Both the position numbers and the translations under genes were made by a program. From positions 62,001 through 126,000 of the forward strand of contig JACPVI010000015.1 of the NCBI GenBank assembly GCA_016191815.1: a stretch of DNA of 64,000 nucleotides, in the 5' to 3' direction. The notes beneath the pieces were generated by a model that saw nothing but the letters and a program-made list of their open reading frames with translations, was not told where the DNA came from and made no database searches. Shown one piece after another: positions 32,359-38,711 of this stretch (its first letter is position 1; every line of letters begins with the position of its first letter). Source of the DNA: Myxococcales bacterium (lineage in GTDB: Bacteria > Myxococcota > Myxococcia > Myxococcales > Myxococcaceae).

Positions 32359-33837
32359 TCAAGCCGTCAGCCGCGGCGGCGGCTCCACCGCGCGCTTGCG
32401 GTCGGGCATCCCGAGCAGCCGCTTGAAGAGGCGGACCACCGCGAACACGACGTAGGCCCGCAGGAACGGAACTGCCGCCTTCGGCACGAAGTAGGGGTTC
32501 TTCGTGCGGCCCACCCCGGCGATGAGGTGGGTCATCTCCGAGACCGAGACCGGGCAGCCGTGAAGGCGGAGGACCTGCTCGTTGCGGCCGCGGGAGAGAA
32601 TCCAGAACATCCGGACCATCTTCCGGAAGATGCTCTCCGACTTGGCCCGGTGAGGGTCCTTCTCCTTCCGGTCGACATAGGTGGAGTCGATGCGCACCGC
32701 GCGGCCGCAGATCTTCCCCTCCCACCGCGCGCAGTCGCCGACGAAGACCACCTTCTGCCCGTCCTGCGGTTCGATGGGACCCTTGTAGCCGCCGAACACC
32801 AACGTGAAGCGCTTCATCTTCTCGTCCGCGTCCGGCTGCATCTTCCGGACGATGTCGATCGCCTCCTCGATCGCCCCGGGGCACCCCCCCCAGCAGTAAT
32901 CGAAGTGCATCTCCTCCGGCGGCGGCCCCGCGTGGGCGGTGATGCGCGTCCCCCGGAAGAAGTCCTCCACCCGGATCAGGCCCGCCTTCAGGCCCTTGGC
33001 GGCGGCCTTGCCCTCCTCGAGGCTCACGTCCCCATCGAGCGAAATCTCCGACAGCTCGATCGGCCCGATGCCCTTGGCGTGCGCGGCGCGGATGTGGCCA
33101 ATCTCCTTCGGGTCCAACCCCAACAGGTGGCAGCACACCGCGTCCACCGCCACCGGGTTGTTCCCCATGATGATCAGCCCCGGGGGAAAGGGGGCGGGCG
33201 TGAGCATCCGCCCCTCTCCCGCCACGATCCCGTCCACGGCGATGAAGCGCTGGCGGACGATCTCCTGGAGGTCGGCGATCTTCTCGTCGAGCCGGTGGTC
33301 GTGGTCGATGAGGCGGTGCTCGTCTTGCTGGATGCCGATGAAGTTCTTCAGCGCCAGGGTGAGGGTCGTCCACGGGTGCGTCTTGAACTTCGGCAGGTTG
33401 ACCAGGTAGTCGCAGCGGGCCACCGGCTCCGGGGTGTAGAAGTAGTCGCGCAGGCGCGGAGTGCGGCCGAGCTTCACCTCCACCTGCGGCTCCTCGTCGA
33501 AGAAGTACGCCTTGGCCTGGTGCTTCTTGAGCACCGGGTGCCACCCCGCATTGTTGAACGTGAGCCGGGTGGGCATTCCGATGCCGCACCGCTCACCCAC
33601 CGCCAGCTCGGCCATCTGTGGGGCCACGTCGCGCAGCGCGCCCAGCACCCCGTCCAAAAACTCGGCCCGGGTATAGGCGTGGGCGAAGTACTCGGGGTGG
33701 GCGATCACCCCGTTGGGCTTCACCAGCACCTTGCCTTGGGGCAGGTCCCCCACCGCCTGAATGCCCTCACGGACGATTCCCCGGATGCGGTCGGGCTCGT
33801 AGCTGGCGCAGCGTCTCAGGATGACGATGGGGCGCAC
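32359..33837 (-). CDS. DUF362 domain-containing protein
   Basis: 492 residues. Recognised by VLVKPNGVIAHPEYFAHAYT, YLVNLPKFKTHPWTTLTLAL, KNFIGIQQDEHRLIDHD, FIAVDGIVAGEGR and GNNPVAVDAVCCHLLGLDP. DUF362 proteins often have ferredoxin clusters; here none is visible, only isolated Cys such as FDYCWGGCPGA. The C-terminus contains a hydrophobic segment (AVPFLRAYVVFAVVRLF). The biochemical role is unknown. It is divergent from the beta-propeller/SCO operon across about 200 bases. Confidence 0.85.
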   Translation of the reverse strand: MRPIVILRRCASYEPDRIRGIVREGIQAVGDLPQGKVLVKPNGVIAHPEYFAHAYTRAEFLDGVLGALRDVAPQMAELAVGERCGIGMPTRLTFNNAGWHPVLKKHQAKAYFFDEEPQVEVKLGRTPRLRDYFYTPEPVARCDYLVNLPKFKTHPWTTLTLALKNFIGIQQDEHRLIDHDHRLDEKIADLQEIVRQRFIAVDGIVAGEGRMLTPAPFPPGLIIMGNNPVAVDAVCCHLLGLDPKEIGHIRAAHAKGIGPIELSEISLDGDVSLEEGKAAAKGLKAGLIRVEDFFRGTRITAHAGPPPEEMHFDYCWGGCPGAIEEAIDIVRKMQPDADEKMKRFTLVFGGYKGPIEPQDGQKVVFVGDCARWEGKICGRAVRIDSTYVDRKEKDPHRAKSESIFRKMVRMFWILSRGRNEQVLRLHGCPVSVSEMTHLIAGVGRTKNPYFVPKAAVPFLRAYVVFAVVRLFKRLLGMPDRKRAVEPPPRLTA

Positions 33838-34040
33838 GGCCCCAGAGTAGGTCCGGCGTGTGCCCCGGTAAAGCCGCCTCCCGGCGGGCGGCTTTGGGGT
33901 GACGGTCGGCCGGGCCGGCGGGAGTGTAGTCCAGCGCCGCCGGTGCGGTTTGCGACAGCGCCTCTTCCCCCCGGTCCATTTGTCCGAACGCGCCGCGATG
34001 AATACGTCTGCGGTCCTGGGAAGAACCCAGCGAACGTCGC

Positions 34041-35960
34041 ATGAAGAAGGCCCTGCTCATCGCGCTCCTCGCCATCGCCGCCGGAGTCGCCGCGTGGCGG
34101 CTTTTGCTCTGCAAAGGGGCGCCGGCGGCGGCGCCAGCCGAGCCTCAACCCGTCTCTGAAACCGCGCGGGTCATCCGCGAGGGCCTCTCGATCGACTTGG
34201 AGCTTCGGCCGCTCAGCGGGCGGCGCGCCCGTGAGATGGGCGAGGCGACCGTCTCTTTCAAGGTGACCGACGCCTCCAGCGGGGAGCCGGTGCGCGGCCT
34301 GCGCCCGATGGGCTGGCTGTGGCGCCGCGAGGGGAACGCCGCCCCTGACGAACAGGAATGCCGCCGGAAGATGAAGACCTTCCTCGGCGGTTTCCTCTCG
34401 GCCCAGGCCGAGGTGGACTTGAACTCCTTCCTCCTGCTGGCGCTGAACCACGACAACACCATCTCCATCATCAATCCGCAGATCGCCTTTTCCCGCACCA
34501 AGCTGCTCGGCCTGGTGACGCTCTCCGGCCGCGCCGCGGACTGGGCCCAGGACGGCGACCGGCTGTACGTGACGATTCCAGCCAGGGGGACGCTCTCGGT
34601 CGTGGACCTGCCCCGGGTGCGGGTGGCGGCCAACGTGGAGGTGGGGCGGGAAGCCTCGCGGGTACTGCTCTCCCCAGACGGACGGACCGCGTTCGTCGGC
34701 GCCGACGGCGAAGGCGCGGTGGCGCTGGTGGACACCCAGGCCCTCGGGCGAGTGGCCCTCCTGCCGACCGCCGAAGGGCGCCAGCATTTCTCCCTCTCCG
34801 GCGACGGGAGGTGGCTCTGGGCGGCGAGCTCGGGCGGCGAGCGGGTACAGCTCTTCGACGTGGAGCGGCGCGAGGCGGCGGCAGAGGTGAAGGTCGGCAC
34901 GGGCGCGAGCGCCATCGCCTCCAGCGACTCGGCGGGAGCGGTCTATCTCGCCCGGCCGGAAGCCGGAGAGCTGGTGATGGTGAGCGCGGCCCGGCGGCAG
35001 CTCGCGAAGCGGCTTCGCCTGGAGCCAGGAGTCTCCGGCGTCTGGTTCGAGCCCGGCGGCCGGTGGGCGTTTGCCTCCAACCCCAAGGACGGCTCGGTGT
35101 CCGTCATCGACTCCGCGGTGGGCGAGCGGGCCTTTCGGCTGGAAGGGTTCCAGTCGCCCGACTTCATCTCGTTCAGCGCCGCTTTCGCCTACGTGCGGTT
35201 GGCAAAGAGCGGCGAGATGGCGCTCATCGGGCTCGCCGAGCTGGAGAAGGGTCTTGCGCCTCCCGTCTTCCGGGTCGCGCTGGCCCAGAAGGCGCCTTCC
35301 CTGGCCAAAGGCGTCGGGCTCTCTTCGCCGTTTGCGCGGACTTGGGCGGCCAGCGAGATGGTGGTCGCCGCCCCGGCCGACCAGACCCTCTACTACTACC
35401 GGGAGGGGATGATGGCCCCGGTCGGCTCGTTTCTGAACTACGGGCGCGATCCGCTCGCCGCGCTGGTGCTCGACCGCTCGCTCAGGGAGCGCGAGCCCGG
35501 CGTCTACCGCACCACCGTGCGGCTCCCGGAGTCCGGGCTGCACGAGGTGGGGTTGCTCATCGACAAGCCACGGGTGGCCACCTGCCTCGAGCTGAGGGTC
35601 GCCGCCGCGGAGCCGAAGGCGGCGCCTGTCGCGCGCGTCGAGCTGACGCCGCTGTTCGACCCGTCGGTGCCACTGGCGGAGAACGCCCCCGCTTCGCTCC
35701 GCTTCCGCATGGTGGAGGCCACTTCGCGAAGGGCGCTTCGGCCCTCCGAGGTCGCGGTGCTGGTGTTCAGGCCGCCGGGCACCTGGCAGTGGAGGCCCGC
35801 TCCGCGCGCGCTCGAGGACGGCTCGCTGGAGATCGAGTTCCCCGCCCCGGGGAAGGGGCAGCTGCGGCTGCTCCTCGCGGCGCCCTCCTTGGGCGCGCCG
35901 TTCGGCTCGCTGCCGCTCCTCAAGCTCGCGGTCGGCGGGGGAAAGGCGGAGGCGCGATGA
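34041..35960 (+). CDS. Membrane-anchored YVTN-type beta-propeller protein
   Basis: 639 residues. One N-terminal membrane helix (LLIALLAIAAGVAAW) precedes a small strand domain (about 45-120, with a Cys in DEQECRRKMKTF). Propeller blades then follow (about 130-420): LLALNHDNTISIINPQI, VTIPARGTLSVVDL, VLLSPDGRTAFVGADG, FSLSGDGRWLWAASS and FASNPKDGSVSVID. The repeats resemble YVTN/cytochrome d1-type propellers, but there is no haem motif. The C-terminal third (about 430-630) has two Ig-like parts. Its stop overlaps the first SCO gene (ATGA). It is the first gene of a four-gene coupled operon with copper and cytochrome proteins, suggesting an electron-transfer or metal-delivery complex in the periplasm. 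Confidence 0.8.
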   Translation: MKKALLIALLAIAAGVAAWRLLLCKGAPAAAPAEPQPVSETARVIREGLSIDLELRPLSGRRAREMGEATVSFKVTDASSGEPVRGLRPMGWLWRREGNAAPDEQECRRKMKTFLGGFLSAQAEVDLNSFLLLALNHDNTISIINPQIAFSRTKLLGLVTLSGRAADWAQDGDRLYVTIPARGTLSVVDLPRVRVAANVEVGREASRVLLSPDGRTAFVGADGEGAVALVDTQALGRVALLPTAEGRQHFSLSGDGRWLWAASSGGERVQLFDVERREAAAEVKVGTGASAIASSDSAGAVYLARPEAGELVMVSAARRQLAKRLRLEPGVSGVWFEPGGRWAFASNPKDGSVSVIDSAVGERAFRLEGFQSPDFISFSAAFAYVRLAKSGEMALIGLAELEKGLAPPVFRVALAQKAPSLAKGVGLSSPFARTWAASEMVVAAPADQTLYYYREGMMAPVGSFLNYGRDPLAALVLDRSLREREPGVYRTTVRLPESGLHEVGLLIDKPRVATCLELRVAAAEPKAAPVARVELTPLFDPSVPLAENAPASLRFRMVEATSRRALRPSEVAVLVFRPPGTWQWRPAPRALEDGSLEIEFPAPGKGQLRLLLAAPSLGAPFGSLPLLKLAVGGGKAEAR

Positions 35961-36529
35961 GGAAACCGGCGCTCGCAGGGGCAGTGCAGCTCTTTGCCTG
36001 GACATTCGCCGCCTGGGCGGCGAACCCGCGGCCGCAGGAGGTGGAGCCGCCCGAGGTGCCCGACGTCCGCTTGCTGGATCAAGAAGGGCGGACGGTTCGC
36101 TTCAAGGACGAACTGCGGCGCGGGCGGGTAGTGGCGGTCAACTTCGTCTACACCACCTGCTCGACGAGCTGCGGGCCGATGACCGCCATCTTCTCGGCGC
36201 TGCAGCGGGAGCTGGGAGCCTCGCTCGGCCGCGAGGTACGGCTGGTCTCGGTGTCCATCGACCCGCGCACGGACACGCCCGAAAGGCTCCGGCGCTTCGC
36301 CAAGAAGTTCGATCGGAGGGAAGGCTGGACCTTCTTCACCGGACCGCCCGATCGCCTCGCCCGGCTGTTCTCCACGCTCGGCGCGCCCACCGACAAGGCC
36401 AACCACACGCCGATGGTGCTGATCGGCAACGAGCGGGCCCGCCGCTGGGTCCGACTCTACGGACTGGTGCCTCCCTCGCGGCTGGCGGAGGAAATCCGCC
36501 GCCTGCTCGACTCTCCCAAGGAGGAGTGA
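35957..36529 (+). CDS. SCO1/SenC-family copper protein, first copy
   Basis: 190 residues with an N-terminal export signal (LAGAVQLFAWTFAAWAA). A thioredoxin-like fold with the copper-binding Cys pair CSTSC (about 68-72) and the distant His in KANHTPM (about 149), both required for copper binding in SCO proteins. It begins at an ATG overlapping the propeller stop and ends overlapping the second SCO gene. SCO proteins deliver copper to cytochrome oxidase CuA or act as thiol reductases; no oxidase subunit lies nearby. Confidence 0.92.
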   Translation: MRKPALAGAVQLFAWTFAAWAANPRPQEVEPPEVPDVRLLDQEGRTVRFKDELRRGRVVAVNFVYTTCSTSCGPMTAIFSALQRELGASLGREVRLVSVSIDPRTDTPERLRRFAKKFDRREGWTFFTGPPDRLARLFSTLGAPTDKANHTPMVLIGNERARRWVRLYGLVPPSRLAEEIRRLLDSPKEE

Positions 36530-37182
36530 TGACGCTGCGCGCTTGCATCGGTCCGGAGGTCGCCTCTGCTCCGCTCGTCGATCGGACCGGGAGCCTCCGC
36601 GCCTGGTCGCTCCAGGCAATGGCGCTGGTTGTTCTCTTCGCGACCCAGGCCGCCGCCGGTGGCCCGACGGGCCTTCCCTCCGCCGGGGAGGAGGCCGCCC
36701 GCAGCTACTTCACCGACCTCGAGCTGGTGGACCAGGACGGCCGCACCTATCGCTTCTACAGTGACCTCTTGCGCGGCAACGTGGTGCTGATCAGCTTCGG
36801 CTTCACCGCCTGCAAGGGAGCTTGCCCACCCATCACCGCGAAGCTCGCTCGAGTGCAGAAGCTCCTGGGAGAGAGGGTGGGGAAGGACGTGCGGATACTG
36901 ACTCTTACCGTGGATCCGGTGGCAGACACTCCGCCGATGCTGAAGCGGTACGCCGACAAGGTGGGCGCGGGCCCTGGCTGGCTCTTCCTCACTGGAGCCC
37001 CGAACAACGTGTCCGCGGTGCTGAGGAAGCTGGGGGATCGCTCCGGCCAGCCCGAGCAGCACTCCACCGCCATCATCATCGGCGACGCCTCCGCGGGGAG
37101 CTGGCTCAAGCTGCCTTCCCTCGAGGCCGCCGACCGGATCGCCTGGGCGGTGGAGCACATCAACGACCCGCCGCGGCGATGA
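36529..37182 (+). CDS. SCO1/SenC-family copper protein, second copy
   Basis: About 217 residues. The ATG at 36529 is chosen because caaggagg lies at normal spacing; the GTG three bases earlier sits too close to it. Signal or anchor helix at about 25-45 (SLQAMALVVLFATQAAAG). The metal Cys pair is CKGAC (about 95-99) and the partner His is in EQHSTAI (about 178). It differs clearly from the first copy, so it is an old duplicate rather than a recent one. Its stop overlaps the start of the cytochrome fusion gene. Confidence 0.92.
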   Translation: MTLRACIGPEVASAPLVDRTGSLRAWSLQAMALVVLFATQAAAGGPTGLPSAGEEAARSYFTDLELVDQDGRTYRFYSDLLRGNVVLISFGFTACKGACPPITAKLARVQKLLGERVGKDVRILTLTVDPVADTPPMLKRYADKVGAGPGWLFLTGAPNNVSAVLRKLGDRSGQPEQHSTAIIIGDASAGSWLKLPSLEAADRIAWAVEHINDPPRR

Positions 37183-38711
37183 GACCCGCGAGCGGCACAA
37201 AAGGTGCCCAGGTTCTGCCCTGCTCGGCCGCGCTGCTTGCCGCGGTCGCCCTCTTCGCCTGCTCGTCTCGCGAGTCTCTTCCGCCCGGAGACGCGGCGCG
37301 GGGCAAGGCGCTCTTCACCCGTGGCCTCACTCGAGACGGCTCTCCGGTCCGCGCAACGCTCGGGGACGGTGTCTCGGAGCTGGCCGGCGAAGCCGCCGCC
37401 TGTGCGAGCTGCCATGGACCTTCGGGCGCGGGCACCTTCGAGGGAGGAATCCTTGCGCCAGACATCTCCGGCGCTCGACTGCGGCGCGAGGTGGGCCCGC
37501 GCTGGCCGGGAGACCCGCTGGCCCGCCCGGCCTACGGCGAAGCTTCGCTCGTGCGCGCCGTCGCCGGCGGGGTGGGTCCGACTGGCCGCATCTTCGGCCC
37601 GGCGATGCCGCGCTACGCGCTGGGCGCGAAGGACCTGGCTCACCTGCTGGCCTATCTGCGCATCCTGGGCACCGAGACGGATCCAGGGGTCTCGGCGGGG
37701 GCACTCCGCCTGGGAGCGAGACTACCCTTGTCCGGGCCCTGGGCTGGCGTCGGGGAAGACGTGCGGGCGGTCCTCTCGGCGCAGTTCGAGGCAGTGAACC
37801 GGCGGGGAGGAATCTACGGGAGGCGCCTGGAGCTGGCACTCGAGGACGCCACTGCCCGCGCCCCCCCTGCCGCGCCACTCTCCGCCCGGGCCCTGGCGGA
37901 GGTGGCCAGCATCTGGAGGGGCCCGCCCGGCGATGACGACCAGCTTCCCGCGGTGGGGGTGATCGATCTCCAGCCTCGCGAGCGGCCGGCAGTCAACGCC
38001 TTCCTGCTGCAGCCGGGTGCGGAGCTGGAGGCGCGCATCGCGGTGCAGCACGCGCTGGCGAGGCTCACTCCCGCCGCCCCCTTGGTGGTCGTCGGCGAGC
38101 AGGGAGGCTGGGCCCGCGGCGCGAGGGCGGAGGCGGACCGGCGCGGAGTGGGCCGGGGGCCGGTTCGTGCGCTGCTCGAGGTGGCCGATGCTCGAGCCGC
38201 GGCGGCCTACCGGCCCGGCGCCATCCTCTTCCAGGGCGAGGCGGCGGCGCTGGGGGAGCTGTTGGAAGCCCTGGGCGAGGGCACGCCGGCCCAGGTGCTC
38301 GCGCCGTGCAGCGTCGCGGCGCGCCTCCCGCCGGCGCAGCGCGCGCCGGCCTCGAAGACGGTGTTGTTCGTTTGCCCGGCGCTGCTCGGCGACCAGTCTG
38401 GGCGGGGGTTGGCGCCGTTTTCGGCCTTCCTCGAACGAAGCGGCCTCGCGCCGAGGAACCTGGCCTTCCAAGCCAACGCCTACGCCGCGGCGACGGTGGT
38501 GATGGAAGCGCTGAAGCGCGCCGGAGAGGGGGTGAGCCGGGCGGGCCTGGTGCGGGCGCTCGAGTCTCTGCGCGACTTCGAGACGGGAGCTTCGCCGCCA
38601 GTCAGCTTCGGACCGGAGCGGCGGGTGGGCGTGGCTGGGGCCTACCTCGCTCGCCTGGAGACGGACGGCCGCCTCACGCCGGTGACCGGCTGGCTCGAGC
38701 TCTCGCCATAG
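37179..38711 (+). CDS. Cytochrome c fused to a LivJ-type substrate-binding protein
   Basis: 510 residues. The N-terminal signal LLAAVALFACSSR could be a lipobox (LFAC). A monohaem cytochrome c domain (about 35-170) has the CASCH haem site (75-79) and a likely axial Met in FGPAMPRYAL. From about residue 175 the protein becomes a periplasmic binding protein of the branched-chain amino acid type (LRLGARLPLSGPWAGVGEDV, AQFEAVNRRGGIYGRRLELA, YAAATVVMEALKRAG). No ABC permease or ATPase is adjacent, so it may sense or bind a ligand in an electron-transfer context. It is the last gene of the operon. Confidence 0.88.
   Translation: MRPASGTKGAQVLPCSAALLAAVALFACSSRESLPPGDAARGKALFTRGLTRDGSPVRATLGDGVSELAGEAAACASCHGPSGAGTFEGGILAPDISGARLRREVGPRWPGDPLARPAYGEASLVRAVAGGVGPTGRIFGPAMPRYALGAKDLAHLLAYLRILGTETDPGVSAGALRLGARLPLSGPWAGVGEDVRAVLSAQFEAVNRRGGIYGRRLELALEDATARAPPAAPLSARALAEVASIWRGPPGDDDQLPAVGVIDLQPRERPAVNAFLLQPGAELEARIAVQHALARLTPAAPLVVVGEQGGWARGARAEADRRGVGRGPVRALLEVADARAAAAYRPGAILFQGEAAALGELLEALGEGTPAQVLAPCSVAARLPPAQRAPASKTVLFVCPALLGDQSGRGLAPFSAFLERSGLAPRNLAFQANAYAAATVVMEALKRAGEGVSRAGLVRALESLRDFETGASPPVSFGPERRVGVAGAYLARLETDGRLTPVTGWLELSP

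Follow-up and report, generated by a model that had tools for sequence, protein, structure and literature searches.

The putative mnxG operon of Pseudomonas putida GB-1 consists, in this order, of mnxG, a 40-residue YVTN propeller gene, two SCO1/SenC genes, a gene for an ABC-type substrate-binding protein (ABC-SBP) with a cytochrome c domain, and a gene for SurA (PMC11409713, Table 4; PMC8218464, Fig. 2c). GB-1 and two Pseudomonas isolates have this order in common (PMC11409713; PMC8218464), and genes for the maturation of c-type cytochromes affect Mn oxidation in Pseudomonas (PMC11409713). In the literature that we found, the oxidase alone has been studied and the genes that follow mnxG are given no role. 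A protein of the myxobacterium Stigmatella aurantiaca has previously been listed with the annotation MnxG (PMC3600357), so that MnxG-like oxidases are not new to myxobacteria. For Bacillus subtilis, a joint action of CtaK (YtkA) and Sco in supplying a copper site has been proposed (PMC13344008).

The operon and its surroundings

In the stretch of 64,000 nucleotides analyzed here (hereafter the window), four open reading frames of the plus strand, denoted P1 to P4, are arranged in tandem at positions 34041-38711 and represent the same four kinds of genes, in identical order, as those that follow mnxG in GB-1.

33838..34040, no strand: divergent intergenic region of 203 bp, the presumed promoter of the operon
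34041..35960, plus strand: P1, 639 aa, membrane-anchored beta-propeller protein with YtkA/FixH-like domains, orthologue of the YVTN propeller gene following mnxG
35957..36529, plus strand: P2 (SCO-a), 190 aa, putative copper site CSTSC (36158-36172) with a His at +82
36529..37182, plus strand: P3 (SCO-b), 217 aa, putative copper site CKGAC (36811-36825) with a His at +83
37179..38711, plus strand: P4, 510 aa, lipoprotein-like fusion of a class I cytochrome c (CASCH, 37401-37415; axial Met143) and a LivJ-family type I periplasmic binding domain

Unlike the GB-1 operon, this set does not have mnxG directly upstream (the oxidase gene is on another contig), and no SurA-like gene was found after P4 in the window. 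Given that mnxG is not directly upstream, we refer to the set as an accessory module rather than an mnxG operon. The operon is quite probably the accessory module of a giant multicopper oxidase of the MnxG type, a putative Mn(II) oxidase, that is detached from the oxidase gene in this genome.

The initial annotation, made from the sequence alone, described this locus as a coupled row of a beta-propeller, two SCO proteins and a cytochrome c-binding protein fusion, and Pfam agrees (Cytochrom_D1-type propeller in P1, SCO1-SenC in P2 and P3, Cytochrom_C and Peripla_BP_6 in P4). The overlapping junctions (ATGA, TGATG and ATGA) are present as described, N-terminal signal or anchor sequences can be recognized by eye in all four proteins, which accords with the claimed export, and the two Cys pairs and one heme site are accounted for by CSTSC, CKGAC and the single CASCH. 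The absence of an adjoining oxidase subunit also holds, in that a tblastn search detects no MnxG-like match in the window; the partner oxidase is encoded elsewhere in the genome, outside the view of that annotation.

The genes next to the operon encode a DUF362 protein, an esterase and an ABC transporter. The DUF362 gene (32359-33837, minus strand; E 7e-41) is divergent from the operon, and between it and P1 there is a GC-rich hairpin, AAAGCCGCC-TCCCGGCG-GGCGGCTTT (33870-33895), that might have a regulatory role. No sigma-54 or sigma-70 consensus was detected in the 203-bp intergenic region, a promoter scan returned nothing, and terminator-like sites are no more common than in shuffled sequences. 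Several known systems were considered and rejected. An ABC uptake system does not fit an operon that has neither permease nor ATPase. The similarity of P1 to the propeller of the PQQ-ABC/ped cluster, TIGR03866, is weak (3.7e-15; 55.8 bits, far under the cut-off of 287.3), and the operon includes no PQQ dehydrogenase or ABC permease. The scores for hydrazine synthase beta and L-NosZ are likewise far under the respective cut-offs.

The P1 propeller protein

The predicted model of P1 (pLDDT 92) comprises four segments.

34152..34343, plus strand: P1 residues 38-101, N-terminal half of a YtkA/FixH-like Ig domain
34425..35474, plus strand: P1 residues 129-478, propeller, in fold nearest to the d1 domain of cytochrome cd1 nitrite reductase
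35475..35612, plus strand: P1 residues 479-524, C-terminal half of the interrupted YtkA-like domain, containing Cys515
35628..35936, plus strand: P1 residues 530-632, another Ig domain, which resembles YtkA in many homologues and is not detected by Pfam in the window's copy

The structure model together with the Pfam tests indicates that the propeller seems to be inserted in a YtkA/FixH-like domain, because the flanking segments match YtkA once they are joined. Specifically, residues 38-101 joined with 478-524 match PF13115 with an E-value of 4e-4 (21.4 bits against a cut-off of 25.9) and FixH with 7e-4, both under the curated cut-offs; the unjoined P1 sequence is under the cut-off as well, and several homologues exceed it. 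The joined halves match PF13115 in four of five P1 homologues, the window's copy included, and YtkA is found in 34 of 57 homologues. Two cysteines, Cys107 and Cys515, are invariant in 57 sequences. The propeller aligns with cytochrome cd1 with a VIA-align Z of 33.4 (rmsd 3.1 over 336-337 residues), a score that many unrelated propellers nearly reach. P1 contains no CxxCH motif, and the GHHE motif of its relatives reads RQHF in the window's copy. Three relatives, two of which are MnxG-linked, show 43%, 32% and 34% identity to P1.

The SCO proteins and the cytochrome c fusion

Both P2 and P3 match solved SCO structures. Two SCO classes recur among the relatives, SCO-a with CTTVC-like and SCO-b with CxDAC/CxGAC-like motifs, and in both classes CxxxC and the His are kept in every copy with a complete domain. 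In P4 (pLDDT 88 for the predicted model, with a LivJ-type binding domain), C75, C78, H79 and M143 are invariant in 43 sequences.

These features bear on the possibility that the set is chiefly an electron-transfer path, in which P1 or P4 would relay electrons from the oxidase substrate into the respiratory chain, with the SCO proteins working as thiol reductases instead of copper donors. P4, a single-heme cytochrome of class I, has an invariant CxxCH and Met, the propeller fold of P1 is cd1-like, and Mn oxidation in Pseudomonas needs c-type cytochrome maturation (PMC11409713), all of which are compatible with such a path. However, metallation is favored by the full putative copper sites of the two SCO proteins and by the YtkA domain, and the GHHE motif of P1 relatives is replaced by RQHF here. 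Furthermore, multicopper oxidases deliver electrons to O2 directly. We consider this explanation doubtful, at about one chance in four. Copper loading is, by a modest preference, the main task that we assign to the module.

Linkage to mnxG across genomes

Relatives identified with P4 and read in context provided the first indication of the partner: in two genomes, G028 and G003, the set is located directly behind a very large multicopper oxidase. This oxidase is MnxG-like, with an E-value of 2.3e-282 for the NCBIfam profile NF041487, below the equivalog cut-off, and of 4.2e-136 for MnxG of PDB entry 9bxa. When public genomes were scanned in a patterned search with P4, no relative emerged; the scan with a P1 alignment succeeded and yielded 80 loci from Myxococcota, Alpha-, Beta- and Gammaproteobacteria, Acidobacteria, Nitrospira and others. 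Where upstream sequence is available, a MnxG-like gene ends just before P1 in 76 of 78 loci and follows P1 in one more; in the remaining locus, an acidobacterial contig (L100), no MnxG was seen. The P1 relative of this contig (L100 6237-8387) is preceded by 6.2 kb without a multicopper oxidase, and its gene is cut off by the end of the contig.

Of the 65 loci that extend far enough downstream, 59 have P1 followed by two SCO genes and P4, a recurrence of the same order beyond chance, the exceptions being one locus with a single SCO gene (L049) and five Pseudomonas loci that have mnxG and P1 only (L074, L085, L096, L104 and L107). Given that these five loci keep mnxG and P1 alone, P1 is the tightest companion of MnxG. 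A SurA-like gene at the end of the operon is present in 37 of the 80 public loci and was not found in most loci of the window's phylum.

Among 195 genomes of this phylum, P1 is found in 34, MnxG in 33, and both in 33, the single P1-only match being weak and partial. Nearly all P1 copies in the phylum are MnxG-linked; the two that lack an adjoining MnxG gene are the window's copy and one of two copies in G028. The latter belongs to a second accessory operon (L024 9298-14194, at about 8.99 Mb of G028:C1; also L040) that encodes P1, a fused SCO-SCO protein and P4, with no mnxG beside it. The closest relatives of this operon, in G126 and G127, both have mnxG; the G028 operon is an independent case of loss or detachment. 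Another genome, G103, carries three complete mnxG/P1-P4 operons (L182, L183 and L184) from different branches of the family tree.

The proposal of the initial annotation that these genes form a copper-delivery or redox module for a non-standard oxidase thus fits, the partner being a MnxG-like giant multicopper oxidase; the set itself is already published as a putative mnxG operon (PMC11409713). The accompanying expectation that no well-known oxidase would consistently adjoin the four genes turned out to be wrong, since the search for the gene set shows that the relatives are consistently MnxG-adjacent. The gene set and its partner are therefore already known, and what is unusual here is the separation from the oxidase gene. 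That the module serves a MnxG-like oxidase can be stated with high confidence.

In many relatives from the phylum, a histidine kinase/response regulator pair is encoded convergently, directly after P4 (L023 6920-8997, L044 14664-16756, L192 and others); no close match to this pair was found in the window or in the mnxG region of contig C66. Such pairs and the well-predicted, LivJ-like fold of the periplasmic binding protein (PBP) domain would suit the suggestion that this part of P4 recognizes a small molecule and controls the oxidase or a signaling path. The window, however, offers neither a transporter nor a kinase as a partner, and the invariant positions of P4 belong to the heme domain and the PBP framework, not to one obvious pocket. 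Small-molecule sensing, which had also been put forward in the initial annotation, thus lacks support, and we regard it as improbable.

The partner oxidase in the same genome

The genome that contains the window (G000) encodes a MnxG-like oxidase of its own at G000:C66:33228-37952, on a 52-kb contig, without P1-P4 beside the gene. P1 is confined to the window in this genome, apart from a weak match to an unrelated propeller. The oxidase is about 60% identical to a P1-linked relative, matches MnxG of PDB entry 9bxa over its length (1.9e-135), and has the copper-ligand motifs HxxHxHxH, HCHxxxHxxxxM, HIH and HDH intact. Thus, it resembles MnxG in its full-length match and in the motifs of multicopper oxidases; its score against NF041487 (433.8 bits for the best piece) is under the equivalog cut-off of 3100 bits, as are those of all copies in the phylum. 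A search of the genome with Pfam Cu-oxidase_3 gave no match, a false negative, given that the oxidase was immediately recovered with the full MnxG query. We infer Mn(II) as the likely substrate, although no oxidase of this phylum reaches the curated MnxG cut-off; for that reason, the substrate may also differ from Mn(II).

Contamination as the source of contig C66 was considered and rejected. The tetranucleotide signature of its flanks compares with the window's genome at 0.76-0.88, a range about equal to that within this genome, versus 0.60-0.76 for other organisms. In quick trees of P1 and of MnxG, which agree in general, G000 falls in the same clade, with G103b as its nearest neighbor, although it is long-branched in the P1 tree; the window's P1 nests within a MnxG-linked clade. 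Because the two trees place G000 alike, the simplest reading is that an ancestral mnxG operon was probably split in this lineage. One observation counts against a tie between the module and mnxG: no promoter motif is common to the upstream regions of the operon and of mnxG in this genome, the longest common word being of 8 letters, at the level of shuffled sequences.

The fact that the operon and the oxidase gene are unlinked in G000, along with the second mnxG-less copy in G028, might suggest that the operon is an orphan remnant, or is re-used to load copper into another enzyme such as a cytochrome oxidase, and no longer serves MnxG. This appears unlikely. All P1-P4 reading frames are intact with their motifs kept, MnxG is also intact and co-retained, the P1 and MnxG trees are congruent, and the cox-type genes of this genome adjoin a separate SCO gene. 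A role in cox assembly was rejected on the latter ground.

Proposed mechanism and implications

Given that YtkA proteins assist copper loading by SCO in Bacillus, the accessory module is best described as a candidate copper-loading and redox helper that would act in trans on MnxG. The exported MnxG would take up several copper ions, either in the periplasm or on the outer surface. P2 and P3, with their CxxxC and His, could bind copper and pass it on, or could keep MnxG and each other reduced, and P1 might be a docking and copper-relay partner of the SCO proteins and MnxG, in the way that CtaK (YtkA) is paired with Sco in Bacillus. Hence P1-P3 resemble the B. subtilis system in the combination of a YtkA-like domain with SCO proteins and differ from it in that a propeller seems to interrupt the YtkA domain, that there are two SCO proteins and that the presumed client is a multicopper oxidase. 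By analogy with that system, P1, P2 and P3 most likely load copper into the exported MnxG. We infer that P4 is a redox link, either a reductant for the SCO thiols or for copper, or an electron acceptor or donor of the oxidase, with the PBP domain possibly a docking or allosteric part.

No experiments on P1-P4 or on the GB-1 orthologues were found in the literature. The five Pseudomonas loci without SCO and P4 imply that loading by SCO is not always encoded in cis, and the other, cox-linked SCO of this genome makes redundancy possible. It is also conceivable, if somewhat against the odds, that P1-P4 are a self-contained machine, dedicated to loading giant multicopper oxidases with copper in trans and built on a new chaperone platform (a propeller in a YtkA domain), that is separable from its client and persists independently.

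Bacteria that oxidize Mn(II) influence the cycling of metals and carbon. Given their near-obligate linkage to MnxG across phyla, P1-P4 are prime candidates for filling and wiring a giant copper enzyme. The split arrangement in the window's genome and the mnxG-less copy in G028 provide natural cases in which the helper and the oxidase may be regulated, and can be tested, apart from one another.
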